From positions 1 through 51,452 of the forward strand of contig JAFYUS010000029.1 in assembly GCA_017549505.1 (NCBI GenBank): 51,452 nt of DNA. Direction: 5' to 3'. Positions 12,926 through 50,836 of the stretch are shown in pieces. Position 1 is the stretch's first letter; each line of letters starts with the position of its first letter. The position numbers and the translations under genes are program-made. The notes beneath the pieces are model-generated. The model did not search any database, had not been told where the DNA came from, and saw only the letters and a list, made by a program, of their open reading frames with translations. This stretch comes from Bacteroidales bacterium (lineage in GTDB: Bacteria > Bacteroidota > Bacteroidia > Bacteroidales > UBA932).

Positions 12926-14596
12926 ATGGAAGAGGTAAACAAGGAAGTCGTTGAGACCAGAAATCTCAACTTTTTGGAGGAGATCATCGAGGCTGATCTC
13001 GCCAGCGGCAAGTGTGAATCGGTAATGACCCGTTTCCCGCCTGAGCCAAACGGATACCTTCACATCGGACATGCGAAGAGTATCTGCATCAATTTCGGAC
13101 TCGCAAAGAAATACGGCGGAAAGACAAATCTCCGCTTCGACGATACAAACCCTGTAAAGGAGGATACCGAGTATGTAGACTCAATCAAGGAGGATATCAA
13201 ATGGCTCGGTTTCGAGTGGGAGAACGAGCGTTATGCTTCCGACTACTTCGACCAGCTCTATGAGTGGGCTGAAGAACTTATCAGGAAGGGTCTTGCATAC
13301 GTTGACGACCAGACTCAGGAGGAAATCCGTGCAGGCCGTGGTACTGTACAGGTACCTGGAACAGAGAGCCCGTACCGTAACAGAAGCGTTGAGGAAAACC
13401 TCCAGCTTTTCCGTGATATGAAGGCAGGAAAGTATGCAGATGGTGAGAAGGTTCTCCGTGCAAAGATTGACATGGCCCACCCTAACATGCTTTTCCGTGA
13501 CCCTCTTCTTTACCGTATCATCCACGCACACCACCACCGTACAGGTGACAAGTGGTGCATCTATCCGATGTACGACTATGCTCACGGTCAGTCAGACAGT
13601 ATCGAGAACATCACACACTCTATCTGTACCCTCGAGTTCGACGTTCACCGTCCGCTTTATGACTGGTTCATCGAGAAGCTAGGCATCTTCCCTTCGCATC
13701 AGTATGAGTTCGCAAGACTCAACCTTACATATACAGTGATGTCTAAGCGCAAGCTTCTCGAACTTGTGAAGAACAACTTCGTAAGCGGTTGGGATGATCC
13801 ACGTATGCCGACCATCTGCGGTATCCGCCGTCGCGGTTACACTCCTGAGTCAATGCGTATGTTTGCAGAGAAGGTGGGAGTTGCAAAGCGCGAGCAGCTT
13901 ATTGACCTCCAGCTCATGGAATGGTGTGTACGTCAGGACCTCAATGAGCGTTCAAACAGATACATGGTAGTTCAGGATCCTGTGAAGTTGACCATCACAA
14001 ACTGGGAACCAGGCAAGGTGGAGTGGTTCGATGCACCTCTCAACCCGGCAGACCCTGAAGGACCGTCACGTAAGGTTCCTTTCACCGGCGAGGTATACAT
14101 CGAGAGAAACGACTTCATGGAAGAACCTCCAAAGAAGTATTTCCGTCTCAAGCCTGACGGAGAGGTTCGTCTCAAGTACACATACATCATCAAGTGCCAG
14201 GAAGTCGTAAAGGATGCCGAGGGCAACATCGTAGAGATCAAGTGTACATACGATCCTACTTCAAAGCCGGGAGCAGGCGAGTGGCGTTCTGTCAAGGGTA
14301 CCATCCACTGGGTGTCTACAGAACATGCAAAGGAAATCGAGCTCAGACTTTACGACAAGCTCTTTACAGAGGCGCAGATGGGTCAGATTCCAGAGGGAGA
14401 AGACTACAAGAACTACCTCAATCCTGAGTCTCTCGTCGTTGCCAAGGGTTATGCAGAGCCAGCACTCCTCGAAGACAATTCAGGTATCGCAGTTCAGTTC
14501 GAGCGCGTAGGCTACTTCTTCAAGGACTACGACAGCACTCCTGACCACTTCGTGTTCAACAAGACTACAGCTCTTAAGGACAGCTTCAAGTTCTAG
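12926..14596 (+). CDS. glnS: Glutaminyl-tRNA synthetase
   Basis: A 556-residue class I aminoacyl-tRNA synthetase that charges tRNA-Gln with glutamine. It has the N-terminal ATP motif PPEPNGYLHIGHAKS (HIGH at about residues 47-50), the fold motif FDDTNPVKED, the tRNA-contact region IHAHHHRTGDKWCIYPMYD and the second ATP signature VMSKRKL. The C-terminal anticodon-binding beta-barrel domains follow. Length equals that of standard bacterial GlnRS and there is no YqeY extension. The high use of CGT, CTC and GAC codons suggests strong expression. A long palindromic repeat starts 5 bases after the stop. Confidence 0.98.
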   Translation: MEEVNKEVVETRNLNFLEEIIEADLASGKCESVMTRFPPEPNGYLHIGHAKSICINFGLAKKYGGKTNLRFDDTNPVKEDTEYVDSIKEDIKWLGFEWENERYASDYFDQLYEWAEELIRKGLAYVDDQTQEEIRAGRGTVQVPGTESPYRNRSVEENLQLFRDMKAGKYADGEKVLRAKIDMAHPNMLFRDPLLYRIIHAHHHRTGDKWCIYPMYDYAHGQSDSIENITHSICTLEFDVHRPLYDWFIEKLGIFPSHQYEFARLNLTYTVMSKRKLLELVKNNFVSGWDDPRMPTICGIRRRGYTPESMRMFAEKVGVAKREQLIDLQLMEWCVRQDLNERSNRYMVVQDPVKLTITNWEPGKVEWFDAPLNPADPEGPSRKVPFTGEVYIERNDFMEEPPKKYFRLKPDGEVRLKYTYIIKCQEVVKDAEGNIVEIKCTYDPTSKPGAGEWRSVKGTIHWVSTEHAKEIELRLYDKLFTEAQMGQIPEGEDYKNYLNPESLVVAKGYAEPALLEDNSGIAVQFERVGYFFKDYDSTPDHFVFNKTTALKDSFKF

Positions 14597-14600
14597 GAAA

Positions 14601-14702
14601 AACAAACAGAAGCCCCGCAATTCATACGATCCTCCCCACTCCGTGGGTCCCTTCCCTTTTCGGGAGCCAATGTCGTATCGAATTGCGGGGCTTCTGTTTG
14701 TT
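14601..14702. repeat. Palindromic nested-hairpin element, copy A
   Basis: Two perfect 23-base arms (14601-14623 and 14680-14702, AACAAACAGAAG.../...CTTCTGTTTGTT) are extended by a further six paired bases (ATACGA/TCGTAT) with one bulged base. Inside is a C-rich core with two small hairpins: CCCAC-TCC-GTGGG and TCCC-TTTTC-GGGA, ending AGCCAATG. It lies between the convergent glnS and dsbD genes, where it can act as a two-way terminator. The inner design matches copies B (46120-46218) and C (49720-49826); the outer arms do not. Confidence 0.85.
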
Positions 14703-14761: not shown

Positions 14762-16681
14762 CTATCTCGCTTTGTAAGCGTCGATACCGCTGTTAAGGAA
14801 CTTGATGAAGTTTTCGACTGAAAGGTCGTAACTGTGGGTTGGAACGAGGATTTCGCCGTCAGGGGAGAGGAGAACGTAGTTTGGCTGGGCATTCACGTTG
14901 AATCTCTCACGTGCGATGTATGAGTTTACTCGTCCAAGGTCCTTGTATACCTTTCCTGTCTGGGCGTCAGTGACCCAATCCTCTTCAGGAAGCTTGTGCT
15001 TGTCGTCTACGTACAATGCAACGATTACATACTCATTGCGAAGGATGTCAAGAGCAGCAGGATCGCTCCATACTCTCTGCTCCATTTCGCGGCAGTTAAC
15101 ACAAGCATGTCCTGTCACGTCCACAAATACAGGCTTTCCGGCCTCTTTAGCTGCCTCAAGTCCCTGCTCCAGATCAAAGTATCCTTCGAGGTTGTGTGGC
15201 AGGTGGAGGAAGTCATATTTCTTACCTTCTGCCTGTACCGGAGCCTCATCAGTTGTGATAACGTGAGATGTGGCGCCAGGTGCAAGTACATAATCCTGAG
15301 TAGAGATTGGAGGAAGGTAGCCTGAAAGACCGCTGAGAGGTGCTCCCCACATACCTGGTACCATGTATACCACGAATGAGAATACTACGATTGCAAGAGA
15401 CAGTCTTGTCACAGAAATATGCGGAACATCGTCGTCGTGTGCGAACTTGAGCTTGCCGAGAAGATAGAATCCGAGGAGTGTGAATACTACAATCCAGATT
15501 GCAAGATAGATCTCCCTGTCAAGAAGTCCCCAATGGTAAGTCTGGTCAGCCATGCTGAGGAACTTGAATCCGAGTGCAACTTCGATGAATCCCATGACAA
15601 CCTTTACGGTATTCAACCATCCGCCGCCGCTCTTCTTGAGATCCTTCAGAAGCGACGGGAAGAATGCGAGAAGTGTGAACGGAAGGGCGAATGCTACAGA
15701 GAATGCAAGCATTGTAACGATAGGAATCCACCATGCACCGTTGCTTGATGTTGCCTGGATAAGGACATTTCCTACGATCGGACCTGTACATGAGAATGAA
15801 ACAAGTACAAGGGTAAGCGCCATGAAGAATACTCCTGCAAGACCCTTCTTGTCAGATCCCTTGTCACTCTTGTTGACGAGCGACTGAGGAAGAGTGATTT
15901 CGAATGCTCCGAAGAATGAGGCTGCAAACACCATGAAGATTATGAAGAACAGGATGTTCGGCAGCCAGTGGGTTGCAATCCAGTTGAAGATGTCTGCAGT
16001 TACTGACTCTCCTCCGATGATACGTGTTATAACGATGAGAAGAGCGATCGGGAGAGTGTAGAGGAGTACGATGAAAAGACCGTACATGCCGGCCTTGAAG
16101 CGTCCCTGTGCTACAGACTCGGATCCCTTGAGGAAGAATGATACCGTCATCGGCACCATAGGGAACACGCAAGGAGTCAGAAGCATTGCAAATCCCCAGA
16201 GGATGGCCTGAAGGATAAGTCCCCATGGGAAGGCTGTCTTCTGTTTTGCTCCCGCTGCAGTCACTTCGAAGTCATAGTATTCTGCCTTACATGCACCTCC
16301 GGTACATGCGTTTGTGAAGATGGTACCTGTCACCACTGCTTTACCGACTGTTACCTTCACATCCTGTGCTATGACTATCTCATTGTAATAGTGGCGTGCA
16401 GGATCTCCGAATTCATCGGTTTCTTCAACAGGAGTGCTCAGTTCATAAGGTTCTCCTACGAATTCTCCTCCTTCGATAGCAAGGTCCTGGAATTCGGTAG
16501 CAGAAAACTCATCGGTGAGAGTATAGGTATGGTAACCTTCTGCAATCTTACCGGTAAAGACGATAGTTGTCTTGTTACCTTCGCCAGCCTCGACATGTGA
16601 TGACCATGTGACGAGCTGACCCTGCGCAAAAGCCGCGAGACTTAAAAGAGACGCGGCTAAAACTGTTATAAATTTTCTCAT
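14762..16681 (-). CDS. dsbD: Thiol:disulfide interchange protein DsbD
   Basis: A 639-residue inner-membrane protein that carries electrons from cytoplasmic thioredoxin to periplasmic thiol proteins. A signal peptide (MRKFITVLAASLLSLAAFA, then Gln) leads to an N-terminal sensing domain with a Cys pair (ACTGGACKAEYYDF). About eight membrane helices carry the two redox cysteines (LTPCVFPMVPMT and SFSCTGPIVGN). The C-terminal thioredoxin domain has CVNC (about residue 529). All six catalytic cysteines are present. It lies 9 bases after rny and probably shares its transcript; the 3' side is closed by copy A and the small hairpin. Confidence 0.95.
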   Translation of the reverse strand: MRKFITVLAASLLSLAAFAQGQLVTWSSHVEAGEGNKTTIVFTGKIAEGYHTYTLTDEFSATEFQDLAIEGGEFVGEPYELSTPVEETDEFGDPARHYYNEIVIAQDVKVTVGKAVVTGTIFTNACTGGACKAEYYDFEVTAAGAKQKTAFPWGLILQAILWGFAMLLTPCVFPMVPMTVSFFLKGSESVAQGRFKAGMYGLFIVLLYTLPIALLIVITRIIGGESVTADIFNWIATHWLPNILFFIIFMVFAASFFGAFEITLPQSLVNKSDKGSDKKGLAGVFFMALTLVLVSFSCTGPIVGNVLIQATSSNGAWWIPIVTMLAFSVAFALPFTLLAFFPSLLKDLKKSGGGWLNTVKVVMGFIEVALGFKFLSMADQTYHWGLLDREIYLAIWIVVFTLLGFYLLGKLKFAHDDDVPHISVTRLSLAIVVFSFVVYMVPGMWGAPLSGLSGYLPPISTQDYVLAPGATSHVITTDEAPVQAEGKKYDFLHLPHNLEGYFDLEQGLEAAKEAGKPVFVDVTGHACVNCREMEQRVWSDPAALDILRNEYVIVALYVDDKHKLPEEDWVTDAQTGKVYKDLGRVNSYIARERFNVNAQPNYVLLSPDGEILVPTHSYDLSVENFIKFLNSGIDAYKAR

Positions 16682-46119: not shown

Positions 46120-46218
46120 TTTTTATTGGCAAAGTGTTACGAAGACCCCCGCCTGCCTTTCGGCAGGCACCCCCTAGCCGGGGGTGGCATGTCTTCTCCA
46201 CACAAATGCCAATAAAAA
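46120..46218 (+). repeat. Palindromic nested-hairpin element, copy B
   Basis: Perfect 12-base arms (TTTTTATTGGCA at 46120-46131, TGCCAATAAAAA at 46207-46218) and inner GAAGAC/GTCTTC pairs enclose a core with two hairpins: GCCTGCC-TTTC-GGCAGGC and ACCCCC-TAGCC-GGGGGT, ending GGCATG. Together they fold as a three-way junction. The core follows the plan of copies A and C. The T-rich 3' arm of the outer stem on the minus strand and its place after yidC suggest terminator use; the remaining 80 bases to yggS show no box of the TAnnTTTG type. Confidence 0.85.
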
Positions 46219-48697: not shown

Positions 48698-49969
48698 TTA
48701 TTTAGTGATTTCTTCTATCATTGCCTTGGCGACGGCGTCAGAGGCTCCTGAACCACCTAGAGCGGCGCGGATATCAGCGTAGTCGTCAAGCATCCTGTTT
48801 CTTCGGTCCTCGTTCTCGATAAGTTCCCTTATCTCTTTCACCAAGGCATCGGCGTTGCATTCTTTCTGGATGAATTCCTTGAATGCAAGCTTGTCGATTA
48901 TGAGGTTGCCGAGGCTGATGTACCTTATCTTGACAATCTTTCTTGCTATCCAATAGGTGAGGGGATTGGTGATATATCCTACAACCTGTGGTGTGCCGAA
49001 GAGTGCTGTCTCAAGGGATGCCGTTCCGGAGTTGACTATTGCCGCTTCTGCATTACGTATTATCGACTGTGTCTCTCCGAAGAGGACCTTGATGTATCGT
49101 TTGTTATCTTCAGTCAGCCAAGGTTCATAATCGGCCATGCTGCGGGCTGGGGCACCAGCAACGAGGAACTGATACTCAGAATACTCCGGAATCTGACGCA
49201 TCTTTGATGCGAATTCAGTCAGTACGGGCATCATTGTGCTTATTTCAGGCTTTCTAGAACCGGCAAGCATTGCTATGAAAGGCTTGTTCTCCAGTCCTGT
49301 CCTGACGAAGAAGTCTTCCCTTGTTTCATTCATCGCCCTTGAACAGTCTACAGCATCTACAAGAGGATTTCCTTTATATATGTAACTGATCCCTTTCGAG
49401 TCGAAGTATGGCTTTTCAAACGGGAAGACTATGAAGAGCTTGTCAACATATGCCTTGAGTTTCTTTATACGTCCTTCGCGTGAAGCCCAGACTTTTGGAG
49501 CGATGTAGTAAAATACTTTGAATCCTGCATTGTGGGCAAATTCTGCAATCTTGAAGTTGAATCCCGGGTAGTCGATCAGAATCACAACATCAGGTTTCCA
49601 TTCAAGTATGTCCTTCTTGCAGAATGATACATTCCCCAGAAGTTTGCGGGCCTTGGCGACTACTTCCACGAATCCCATTACCGCACCGTCCTTATAATGC
49701 CGTACCAGTCCGGAATTCCGGCCGACGGCAGGGGTGTTGAAAACAACCCCTCCCACGCCTTCGGCGCGGGCCCCTCCCCCTGCGGCCAGGGGGGTAGCAC
49801 GGTTTTCAACACCCCTGCCGCCGGCCTCCAGGTCCTGCCAGGCGCTGAGCATGAGGTCGCCGCCCCAGAAGCGGATTTCCGCTTCGGGGTCTTCGGCGTA
49901 TATGCCTTTCATCAGATTTGAGCCGTGGAGGTCGCCCGAAGCTTCTCCTGCTATGATGTAGTAACGCAT
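48698..49969 (-). CDS. lpxB: Lipid-A-disaccharide synthase with an in-frame insertion
   Basis: A 423-residue peripheral membrane glycosyltransferase that joins UDP-2,3-diacylglucosamine and lipid X in lipid A synthesis. The N-terminus IIAGEASGDLHGSNLM, the segments VVILIDYPGFNFKIAEF and VFYYIAPKVWASREGRIKKL, and the C-terminal IVNSGTASLETALFGTPQVV with GNLIIDK are typical. Relatives have about 380 residues. Here about 46 residues (42-87), rich in Gly, Ala and Arg, stand between GGDLM and LVRHYKDGAVMGF, where relatives have about six. This stretch is encoded by palindromic element C. The frame is open throughout, so the gene may still work. Confidence 0.93.
   Translation of the reverse strand: MRYYIIAGEASGDLHGSNLMKGIYAEDPEAEIRFWGGDLMLSAWQDLEAGGRGVENRATPLAAGGGARAEGVGGVVFNTPAVGRNSGLVRHYKDGAVMGFVEVVAKARKLLGNVSFCKKDILEWKPDVVILIDYPGFNFKIAEFAHNAGFKVFYYIAPKVWASREGRIKKLKAYVDKLFIVFPFEKPYFDSKGISYIYKGNPLVDAVDCSRAMNETREDFFVRTGLENKPFIAMLAGSRKPEISTMMPVLTEFASKMRQIPEYSEYQFLVAGAPARSMADYEPWLTEDNKRYIKVLFGETQSIIRNAEAAIVNSGTASLETALFGTPQVVGYITNPLTYWIARKIVKIRYISLGNLIIDKLAFKEFIQKECNADALVKEIRELIENEDRRNRMLDDYADIRAALGGSGASDAVAKAMIEEITK
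49720..49826. repeat. Palindromic nested-hairpin element, copy C, inside lpxB
   Basis: Near-perfect 25-base arms (49720-49744 and 49802-49826, one mismatch, inner ends GTGTTGAAAAC and GTTTTCAACAC) enclose a 57-base C-rich/G-rich core with hairpins ACGCC-TTC-GGCG(C) and CCCCCTG-CGGC-CAGGGGG, ending GGTAGCACG. Core layout equals copies A and B. It lies in the plus orientation, antisense to lpxB, and keeps the lpxB frame open. Confidence 0.88.
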
Positions 49970-49981
49970 GATGATTCTTTG

Positions 49982-50836
49982 TTAAAGATCCTTCACTTCG
50001 TTCAGGATGACAGAAATGCCGTTCAGGATGACAGAAATGCGTCTGCACTCTTCGTAGTCGGTGCAGTCGACGTTATGGGCTACGATGCTGATGTAGCCGT
50101 CTGCAACGATCCTGTGGTCTGCGTCATCTGTATTGCGAGGGTCGTCGATGAATTCTCCTACCATCATGTACAGGTCTTCGCCCTCCTCCAGCACAGGATT
50201 TGAACTCTGTCCCAGAAGCTCAGGAGTTATGCCATACTTCCTGTAATGCTCTACATCCCATTCCTTGAATTCCTTTATCCATTTGCCGAGCCCCTGGTAT
50301 CCTGTCCTGATACCTTTTATCTGATCTGCCGGGATGTCGGGAAAGTTTACATTATAGTATACGCCATGTTTCTGCGGGAGATCGGCCATCAGTTTCCTGA
50401 AGATGTCACCGAAATATTGTGAGACGCCGCTGAAATCGGCATCCGGATGGAGGGTGTCAAGTGATACTCCTATCGCAGGGATGCCGTTAAGCGCTGCCTC
50501 TTCTGCAGCTCCCAGCGTACCGGAATAACATGATGCCGTCGATGCGTTCGAACCATGGTTGATGCCTGATACGACCACGTCTGGGAAGTTGTCAAGAAAC
50601 ATTGTATTGAGACCGAACTTTACACAGCTTGCTGGCGTTGCATCCACGTAATGCCAGCCGTCTCCAAGGTCTTTGTGTGCTATCTGTTTGAATCCGAGAG
50701 AAACTGCCATGGACATGCCTGACTGGTGGTGTTTCGGGGCGATTACAGTGACTTCGCCGAACTCTTTCATGATTTCTACAAGGGCCTTGATACCCTTTGC
50801 CTGATATCCGTCGTCGTTGGTAATAAGAATGCGCAT
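49982..50836 (-). CDS. surE: 5'/3'-nucleotidase SurE with repeat-derived C-terminal tail
   Basis: A 284-residue metal-dependent nucleotidase acting on nucleoside monophosphates. The N-terminal MRILITNDDGYQAKGI carries the metal-binding Asp pair, and VVSGINHGSNASTASCYSGTLGAA (in parts) and FNVNFPD-like VNFPDIPA are conserved. Relatives end near residue 260. The last 20 residues, RRISVILNGISVILNEVKDL, come from an interspersed repeat with a 21-base tandem duplication. A promoter box (TATATTTG, minus strand, 50858-50865) is 21 bases before the ATG. lpxB follows after 12 bases. Confidence 0.95.
   Translation of the reverse strand: MRILITNDDGYQAKGIKALVEIMKEFGEVTVIAPKHHQSGMSMAVSLGFKQIAHKDLGDGWHYVDATPASCVKFGLNTMFLDNFPDVVVSGINHGSNASTASCYSGTLGAAEEAALNGIPAIGVSLDTLHPDADFSGVSQYFGDIFRKLMADLPQKHGVYYNVNFPDIPADQIKGIRTGYQGLGKWIKEFKEWDVEHYRKYGITPELLGQSSNPVLEEGEDLYMMVGEFIDDPRNTDDADHRIVADGYISIVAHNVDCTDYEECRRISVILNGISVILNEVKDL
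49987..50040 (-). repeat. Interspersed repeat with 21-base tandem duplication at the surE 3' end
   Basis: On the minus strand the unit reads GTCATCCTGAACGAAGTG then AAGGATC (50011 to 49987). The neighbouring 21 bases (50000-50020, GTTCAGGATGACAGAAATGC on the plus strand) are repeated at 50021-50040. This class of short palindrome-like repeat is familiar from many genomes, where it is often seen read as CHPERSEG or VILxEAKDL peptides. Confidence 0.75.

Follow-up and report, generated by a model that had tools for sequence, protein, structure and literature searches.

A dispersed repeat core with mostly site-private palindromic arms, carried in frame by lpxB and other conserved genes in a Bacteroidales genus and its family

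The lpxB gene in the 51,452-nucleotide stretch of Bacteroidales DNA analysed here (contig JAFYUS010000029.1; hereafter the window) carries in frame one copy of a repeat family that is dispersed through the genus and the family of the host. Each copy has self-complementary arms that mostly differ from locus to locus, and copies lie in open frames of many genes whose empty sites can be found in relatives. At individual sites we observe mirrored changes in the two arms, cores that point in opposite directions although their arms are homologous, and one palindrome newly formed on the relic of a core. The explanation that we favour, to which we give a probability of about 0.6, is that a short mobile core acquires its arms by fold-back template switching, which would build them at each site from the host flank. 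That fold-back template switching is the cause, and that one arm is of host origin, is what we infer from these patterns.

An earlier note, written from the letters of the window, had described a 107-base palindrome with 25-base arms and one mismatch around a double-hairpin core, placed in frame inside lpxB instead of a loop of about six residues, and our analysis bears this description out. The palindrome occupies positions 49720-49826 (107 bp; Table 1), inside the span of 49709-49846 that had been claimed for it, which proved too wide by a few codons. Its 25-nt arms are 96% complementary and are separated by 57 nt; assuming equal base frequencies, such an inverted repeat has a chance of about 7e-14 per position and spacing and of less than 1e-6 for the window (200 spacings). 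Folded as RNA, the element forms an arm stem that carries two hairpins, with z = -4.6 and 0 of 200 shuffles as stable. The lpxB frame continues through it for 423 codons without an internal stop, and the protein scores 229 bits against NCBIfam TIGR00215 (lpxB; cut-off 190). Between the motifs GGDLM and LVRHYKDG the window protein has 47 residues, where relatives L016 (QSVGGE), L027 and L031 have 6; these are the empty sites that an alignment of related LpxB proteins had been proposed to reveal. By sequence, the insert is an unaligned stretch facing residues 44-58 of E. coli LpxB 5W8S.

Table 1. Positions of the lpxB palindrome, its parts and other family members in the window
Feature	Position	Strand	Description
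lpxB, lipid-A-disaccharide synthase	48698..49969	-	423 aa, frame open through the element
Outer arm 1 of lpxB palindrome	49720..49744	+	Locus-specific; inner 5 nt AAAAC are the family end motif
Conserved core of lpxB palindrome, subfamily 1	49745..49801	+	AACCCCTCCC...GGGGGGTAGCACG; part common to other loci
Core hairpin 1 of lpxB palindrome	49752..49770	+	Stem and loop differ among copies
Core hairpin 2 of lpxB palindrome	49776..49793	+	CCCCCTGCGGCCAGGGGG; kept in subfamily 1
Outer arm 2 of lpxB palindrome	49802..49826	+	Complementary to arm 1, one mismatch
Second, diverged family member	14601..14702	+	Perfect 23-bp arms 14601-14623 / 14680-14702 of other sequence; 56-nt core
Possible weak third member	46120..46218	+	E = 0.021; imperfect arms by eye; just past an apparent TAA stop

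An assembly artefact is an unlikely source of the lpxB palindrome, because the relatives L009 and L010, assembled from other animals, hold a diverged version at the same place in the gene, and nine more relatives hold the core in the same loop in one orientation or the other. Among the relatives read, the length of this loop ranges from 6 to 66 residues. None of the 12 core-bearing lpxB loops breaks the frame. The earlier note had supposed one insertion event, which does not agree with the lpxB tree: among its 37 sequences, orientation A (7 rows) requires 6 changes, 4 of them forced by supported branches, and orientation B (5 rows) requires 4, of which 3 are forced, so that the loop underwent repeated gain, loss or flipping. 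Neither orientation clustered on this tree clearly above shuffled labels. L024, the sister of L012, was considered as a site that had never held the insertion of L012; we rejected this, as L012 and L013 appear to share that insertion and L024 reads as a deletion product. The lpxB cores of L013, L021 and L069 are 33-42 nt longer than that of the window copy and contain one more inner hairpin within hairpin 1, which looks like a small second palindrome inserted into the first. A separate case is the Bacteroidaceae lpxB L071, which contains two in-frame copies (385-530 and 811-960) of another palindromic repeat (NTRPPLTPPQGEDGPSGG..), with arms that look alike in both copies.

We built a covariance model of the element, R1, after aligning 11 copies; the alignment has an outer stem of 22 pairs, and 24 of the 35 consensus pairs show changes on both sides. 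At E≤1, R1 has 24 matches in the genome of the window. Within the genus, matches at E≤0.001 are present in 41 of 61 genomes, the window's own genome counted, and 376 matches were summed across the 61. Genome G006, without a match in this count, gave one weak match under the filters of a 16-genome scan. In the family, with the genus counted, matches occur in 31 of 119 genomes and in 10 of 25 genera, and none was found in the 16 genomes of other families of the order. The earlier reading of a mobile element, in frame in an essential gene and comparable in that respect to the Rickettsia palindromic elements (RPE), is supported: the repeat is dispersed and of mobile type.

The site-specific arms are not only a selection effect of the structure model, since copies found by plain BLAST also possess them. 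A 151-base lpxB query against its own genome retrieved copies that match the middle of the query and not its arms, and all distinct copies found in this way away from contig ends (C11, C13, C63 and C23) have their own inverted repeats of 24-27 bp, unrelated to one another in sequence. A further copy recurs with its flanks at contig ends (C1, C40, C52 and, by its letters, C47); the arm script returned no arms for it, though by eye one can make out an outer inverted repeat. An insertion sequence at the contig ends C1, C52 and C47 was considered and set aside, as inspection by eye revealed no transposase among the ORFs there.

The core common to these loci is approximately 50-80 nt long and consists of two G+C-rich hairpins, with ends of the form ..RAAAC-core-GTTTY... 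There are at least three core subfamilies, which read AACCCCTCCC..GGGGTAGCACG (subfamily 1), TAAATCCCTCCC..GGGCGGCCACG (subfamily 2) and GTCGCTTCGCGACCCCTCCC..GGGTGGCCATG (subfamily 3). The second member in the window lies in a terminator-like place between convergent ORFs (stop at 14596, end at 14762); the ORF ending at 14596 is presumably glnS-like, a name given by eye. A family of this kind appears to be undescribed in the open-licence literature that was searched.

The frame stays open through copies in lpxB, miaA, truB, aroE, aroK and the gene of an M20-family peptidase (ArgE/DapE-like), as well as in genes for an amidohydrolase (hutI-like), a DAP epimerase, a riboflavin kinase/FAD synthetase, Methyltransf_4 and SpoU methyltransferases, radical SAM proteins and others. 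The names hutI, dapF, ribF, trmB, ArgE/DapE-like and glnS were assigned by eye and are not model names. Pfam gave a match for 19 of 20 such ORFs, not always across the insert, and some ORFs with the element near one end may be spurious. Counting only frames with at least 40 codons on each side, copies of subfamily 1 lie in frames in 16 of 19 cases, those of subfamily 3 in 16 of 25, and those of subfamily 2 in 6 of 22; subfamily 1, several of whose frames are without stops, may suit coding DNA. Both orientations of the core are open in at least one frame, encoding NRATPLAAGGG..VGGVV in one and NNPSH..GPSPCGQGGSTV in the other. In lpxB, truB, aroE, miaA and the M20 gene, copies occupy the same loop in several species. 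The miaA of G023 (L233) has two element-like inserts in succession, which make a 92-residue loop in an open frame, and the miaA loop of L229 and L231 seems to hold inserts of other repeats (e.g. GATTCCCGGTCAGGCCGGGAATGAC), so that this loop may be used by repeats of different kinds. The window has a further in-frame fusion of a repeat with a gene at 49999-50040, where a tandem 21-bp repeat (CGTTCAGGATGACAGAAATGC) supplies the C-terminal codons, with the tail NGISVILNGISVILNEVKDL, of ORF 49982-50836, which by eye we take to be surE.

We compared arms within and between copies in 72 elements. This set was drawn from 93 loci (L105-L197), 80 with arms and 13 without, less 2 duplicates and 6 copies that were motif-less or low-scoring. 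At positions 5-22 from the core the two arms of an element are on average 96% complementary (42 of 72 perfectly so), a figure that is an upper estimate because both the arm finder and R1 favour palindromic copies. The control between loci, which is not so favoured, gave a mean match of 31% with a maximum of 0.94 over 2556 pairs. For 20 loci of other genera the corresponding values were 99% within an element and a mean of 31% and a maximum of 1.0 across loci. Terminal inverted repeats common to all copies were absent from the 72 elements and from these 20 loci, and no direct repeat that could be a target-site duplication was evident in the loci read by eye. Arms range from 13 to 43 nt in length. 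They are well conserved only over the four to five bases next to the core (RAAC/GTTY or AACC/GGTT), beyond which there are weak common preferences, G-rich at 17-24 nt.

Arms differ even beside the same core. In 23 pairs with a core identity of at least 95%, mean arm identity is 0.39, compared with 0.29 for the least similar cores. Two copies in G007 with identical 62-nt cores have arms that are 56% alike by position, and among the core-identical L165 and L169 and the near-identical L173 of one genome the arms are 28-56% alike. What is common to the loci is therefore the core, and mostly not the arms, and the earlier view of the whole palindrome as the moving unit has to be given up. Some copies do share arms: in G128 the four copies L358-L361 have a common arm consensus and the pairs L353/L354 and L356/L357 share theirs, and truB L296, L298 and L300 have common arms, probably by descent. 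From such copies, and from the one that recurs with its flanks at contig ends, it follows that arms can be carried along by the core or can mirror a target preference.

In most of the insertions that could be measured, one arm resembles pre-existing gene sequence, of which the other looks like an inverted copy. We compared the net gain in length with empty loops for 13 measurable insertions; left out were all lpxB copies (the loop is too variable), truB L295 (the motif was misread), miaA L233 and L237, and truB L298 and L300, which are the same insertion as L296. The empty loops were read by a motif search that left many fetched homologues unmatched, and only the matched ones were counted. The gain is nearer to the core plus one arm in 9 of the 13 and nearer to the whole palindrome in 4, namely the M20 peptidase of G007, truB of G023, miaA of G031 and miaA of G025, which is close to undecided and whose arm was bounded by eye at 33 nt (the script gave 24 with a longer core).

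Two genes illustrate the pattern. The M20 peptidase has a loop, running from NDD[GA] to EEE, that is exactly 28 aa long in all 11 empty homologues read (30 loci fetched, 14 read) and 59, 65 and 56 aa long in three homologues with the element. The right arm, in gene orientation, continues in G000 and G055 into the conserved ..P..NL stretch (SPAAANL and TPINL with the element, LPVNL or LPINL otherwise), so that the right arm seems to be the older one and the left arm an addition. For aroE it is the right arm that appears to be new: the left arm encodes W-L-W-E-V-A-E-G-L-K, W-L-C-E-V-A-E-G-M-K or W-L-S-G-A-V-Q-G-L-E, and is host-like when set beside the empty counterparts W-L-E-E-V (G000) and W-I-Q-E-F-F-D-G (G038). 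The two nearest aroE empties, 25 and 26 aa, were the only ones used; those of more distant members range from 21 to 63 aa. Left arms of lpxB copies of type B start at conserved Val-aromatic codons (GGTCTGG or GGTCTAT) that the right arm mirrors, and in L033, where GGTCTAT replaces GGTCTGG, the right arm mirrors the change. A rule that would place the host arm 5' of AACCCC in every copy holds for lpxB type B, for L069 versus L026 and for the M20 peptidase of G000, but fails for the M20 peptidase of G055 and for aroE of G025; the host arm has no consistent relation to core orientation.

Once present, the two arms change together. Of 68 left-arm differences between copies at the same site, 47 are mirrored in the right arm with Watson-Crick pairs kept in both species, in a count from 11 same-site comparisons of which some share L011 or L319 and some may involve separate insertions. 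In truB, L297 and L301 have recognisably the same arms around cores in opposite directions, and in aroE of G025 and G031 the core is likewise in opposite orientation with the same arms at the same place. Almost nothing of the core is left in the truB relic L293, yet this relic contains a perfect palindrome of 20 bp, which starts with the core end CCCCTCC and extends into the flank; this suggests that arms can arise without a whole element. Arm homogenisation and spacer inversion at one site, by which template-switch hairpins are recognised, are both present here. According to published accounts, template switching homogenises the arms of inverted repeats and inverts their spacers (PMC8604942), and can create hairpins in one step (PMC8794818).

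The sequence of events that we propose would begin with a short core that spread through the genus and family. At landing or soon after, the replicating strand would fold back on the core, primed by its complementary AAAC/GTTT ends, copy 10-40 nt of neighbouring host DNA and return to its template. The outcome would be host flank, core and an inverted copy of the host flank, that is, a long palindrome with arms private to the site. Later template switches would rewrite one arm from the other and at times flip the core, and the copies that keep the frame would survive in loops of conserved proteins. Template switching would thus be one process to explain the co-evolving arms, the core flips and the L293 relic, and selection on RNA would not be needed. 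Against it stand the four net gains nearer to the whole palindrome, the copies with shared arms, and the slight climb of mean arm identity with core identity, from 0.29 to 0.39. As we found no near-identical genome pairs with and without a fresh insertion, creation of the arms at insertion and their later growth are inseparable. The stricter proposition, that each insertion of the core makes an inverted duplication of 10-40 nt of target, that every copy would thus have a palindrome fitted to its site, that essential enzymes tolerate such in-frame copies time and again at the same loops, and that this amounts to a new mode of DNA insertion, we regard as tentative and on balance doubtful.

As the mover of the core, an IS200-like and RAYT-like Y1 transposase is the best lead, and at this stage a lead only. 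Y1_Tnp (Pfam PF01797) is found at E≤0.001 in 46 of the 61 genus genomes, above its cut-off in 43. The element and the gene are both present in 38 genomes and both absent from 12, with the element alone in 3 and the gene alone in 8 (Fisher p = 2e-5); they agree in 50 of 61, and Y1 is present in 38 of the 41 element-bearing genomes. DDE_Tnp_1, as a control, shows no association (15/41 versus 6/20, p = 0.78). On a 30-genome LpxB tree, 28 genomes are concordant, and joint absence requires at least four changes on supported branches. Genome incompleteness could add to this pattern of co-occurrence. HUH-like and Y..NNP motifs occur in an ORF at 16 of 30 Y1 loci (12 distinct genes), and four of the Y1 proteins score 37-41 bits against NCBIfam REP_Tyr_transpos, under the cut-off of 80. 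Such an enzyme might itself make the arms, if it joined the single-stranded core to a 3' target end and the fold-back then primed copying of the target, with an inverted target duplication at every insertion. The unrelated arms beside identical cores fit generation at insertion of this sort. However, R1 has no match within about 1.5-2 kb of Y1 at any of the 30 loci (26 distinct genes; 4 loci repeat a gene), the discordant genomes include both kinds, though many of the assemblies are incomplete, and the relic L293 carries new arms although its core is no longer whole. We know of no HUH reaction that yields inverted target duplications, and we regard this route to the arms as unlikely.

The other accounts seem to us less probable again. 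A MITE or RPE-like element of the ordinary kind, in which terminal inverted repeats are conserved and the arms have drifted yet stayed self-complementary, would explain the weak common arm preferences, the shared arms in G128, the real mirrored drift at one site (47/68) and the four of 13 net gains that lie near the whole palindrome; it is hard to reconcile with the divergent arms of the core-identical L165 and L169 in one genome, with host codons in one arm and with the nine gains that one arm fits better, and we consider it improbable. Selection of the palindrome as an mRNA structure, for regulation, bypass or removal of the stretch, would suit the strong fold and the two-sided changes in 24 of 35 pairs; the small lpxB set also leans to GU on the coding strand (GU 6, AC 3, other 1), and on the core strand of 74 elements the arm mismatches are AC 29, GU 12 and other 20, an asymmetry that is unexplained. 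But the same cores recur in unrelated genes and between genes, and the coding strand of 44 in-ORF copies shows no excess of GU (GU 10, AC 13, other 12). Moreover, no Rfam family exceeded threshold, the best matches of the window copy being far below gathering scores at a permissive threshold and four other loci giving none above the gathering threshold at curated thresholds, and the 12 core-bearing lpxB loops stay in frame, which bypass or splicing would not need. Such selection is in our judgement very improbable. Insertion of the core into palindromes that already existed could point to L014, an lpxB palindrome without a core, which is equally readable as core loss; given that the empty M20 loops and the nearest aroE empties are ordinary short coding sequence, we see hardly any likelihood in it.

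In the literature consulted, palindromic repeats in frame are described chiefly from Rickettsia, and their origin is unsettled. The RPE, which have a counterpart in Wolbachia, are reported as palindromic repeats of about 105-150 bp that are tolerated in frame in many unrelated conserved genes (PMC2229807, PMC10969869), as is the present family in lpxB, the M20 peptidase, miaA, truB, aroE, aroK and others. The RPE have terminal inverted repeats of their own, tabulated as 12 bp contiguous (PMC2229807), whereas here a core is shared, the arms are mostly site-specific and the phylum differs. A whole element conserved to its ends was not seen, the arms being 31% alike on average with the exceptions in G128; this separation from the RPE is one of description. 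REP/REPIN sequences and their RAYT genes resemble the family in their small hairpin repeats and in the RAYT-like Y1 gene that co-occurs with it. Genes of the TnpA-REP subclass 2.6 (Bacteroidetes) are described as having on their flanks atypical secondary structures that also occur as copies elsewhere (PMC6006769), and intragenic REPs have been reported (PMC3733652). By comparison, in the present family GTAG stands beside hairpin 2 in subfamily 1 only and is absent from subfamilies 2 and 3, the 30 Y1 loci have no R1 match as flanking repeats, and the arms are not conserved.

Correction of quasi-palindromes is similar in the homogenisation of arms and inversion of spacers in coding DNA (PMC8604942) and in perfect hairpins made in one event (PMC8794818). 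It differs in scale: the inverted spacers given in that account have 2-5 bp changed, with arms >9 bp (PMC8604942), while the present arms of 13-43 bp surround a dispersed core of 50-80 nt at many sites per genome. Long perfect inverted repeats in functional genes are also described from mitochondria of Nematomorpha (PMC6649704); there both arms encode conserved protein, and the passages on these palindromes mention no shared mobile core (PMC6649704). Judged by its sequences, the family appears to be a variant of the protein-coding palindromic repeat in which a dispersed conserved core has a palindrome apparently made from local DNA.

The covariation of the arms carries a warning, in that it resembles strong evidence for a conserved RNA and can be explained by copying between arms without selection on RNA. 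The family offers hundreds of natural copies, some with empty orthologous sites, from which one can trace in steps how coding palindromes are born, grow, flip and disappear. If the arms are made from the target, then either an apparently undescribed insertion chemistry is at work or template switching is a strong force in the shaping of bacterial proteins.
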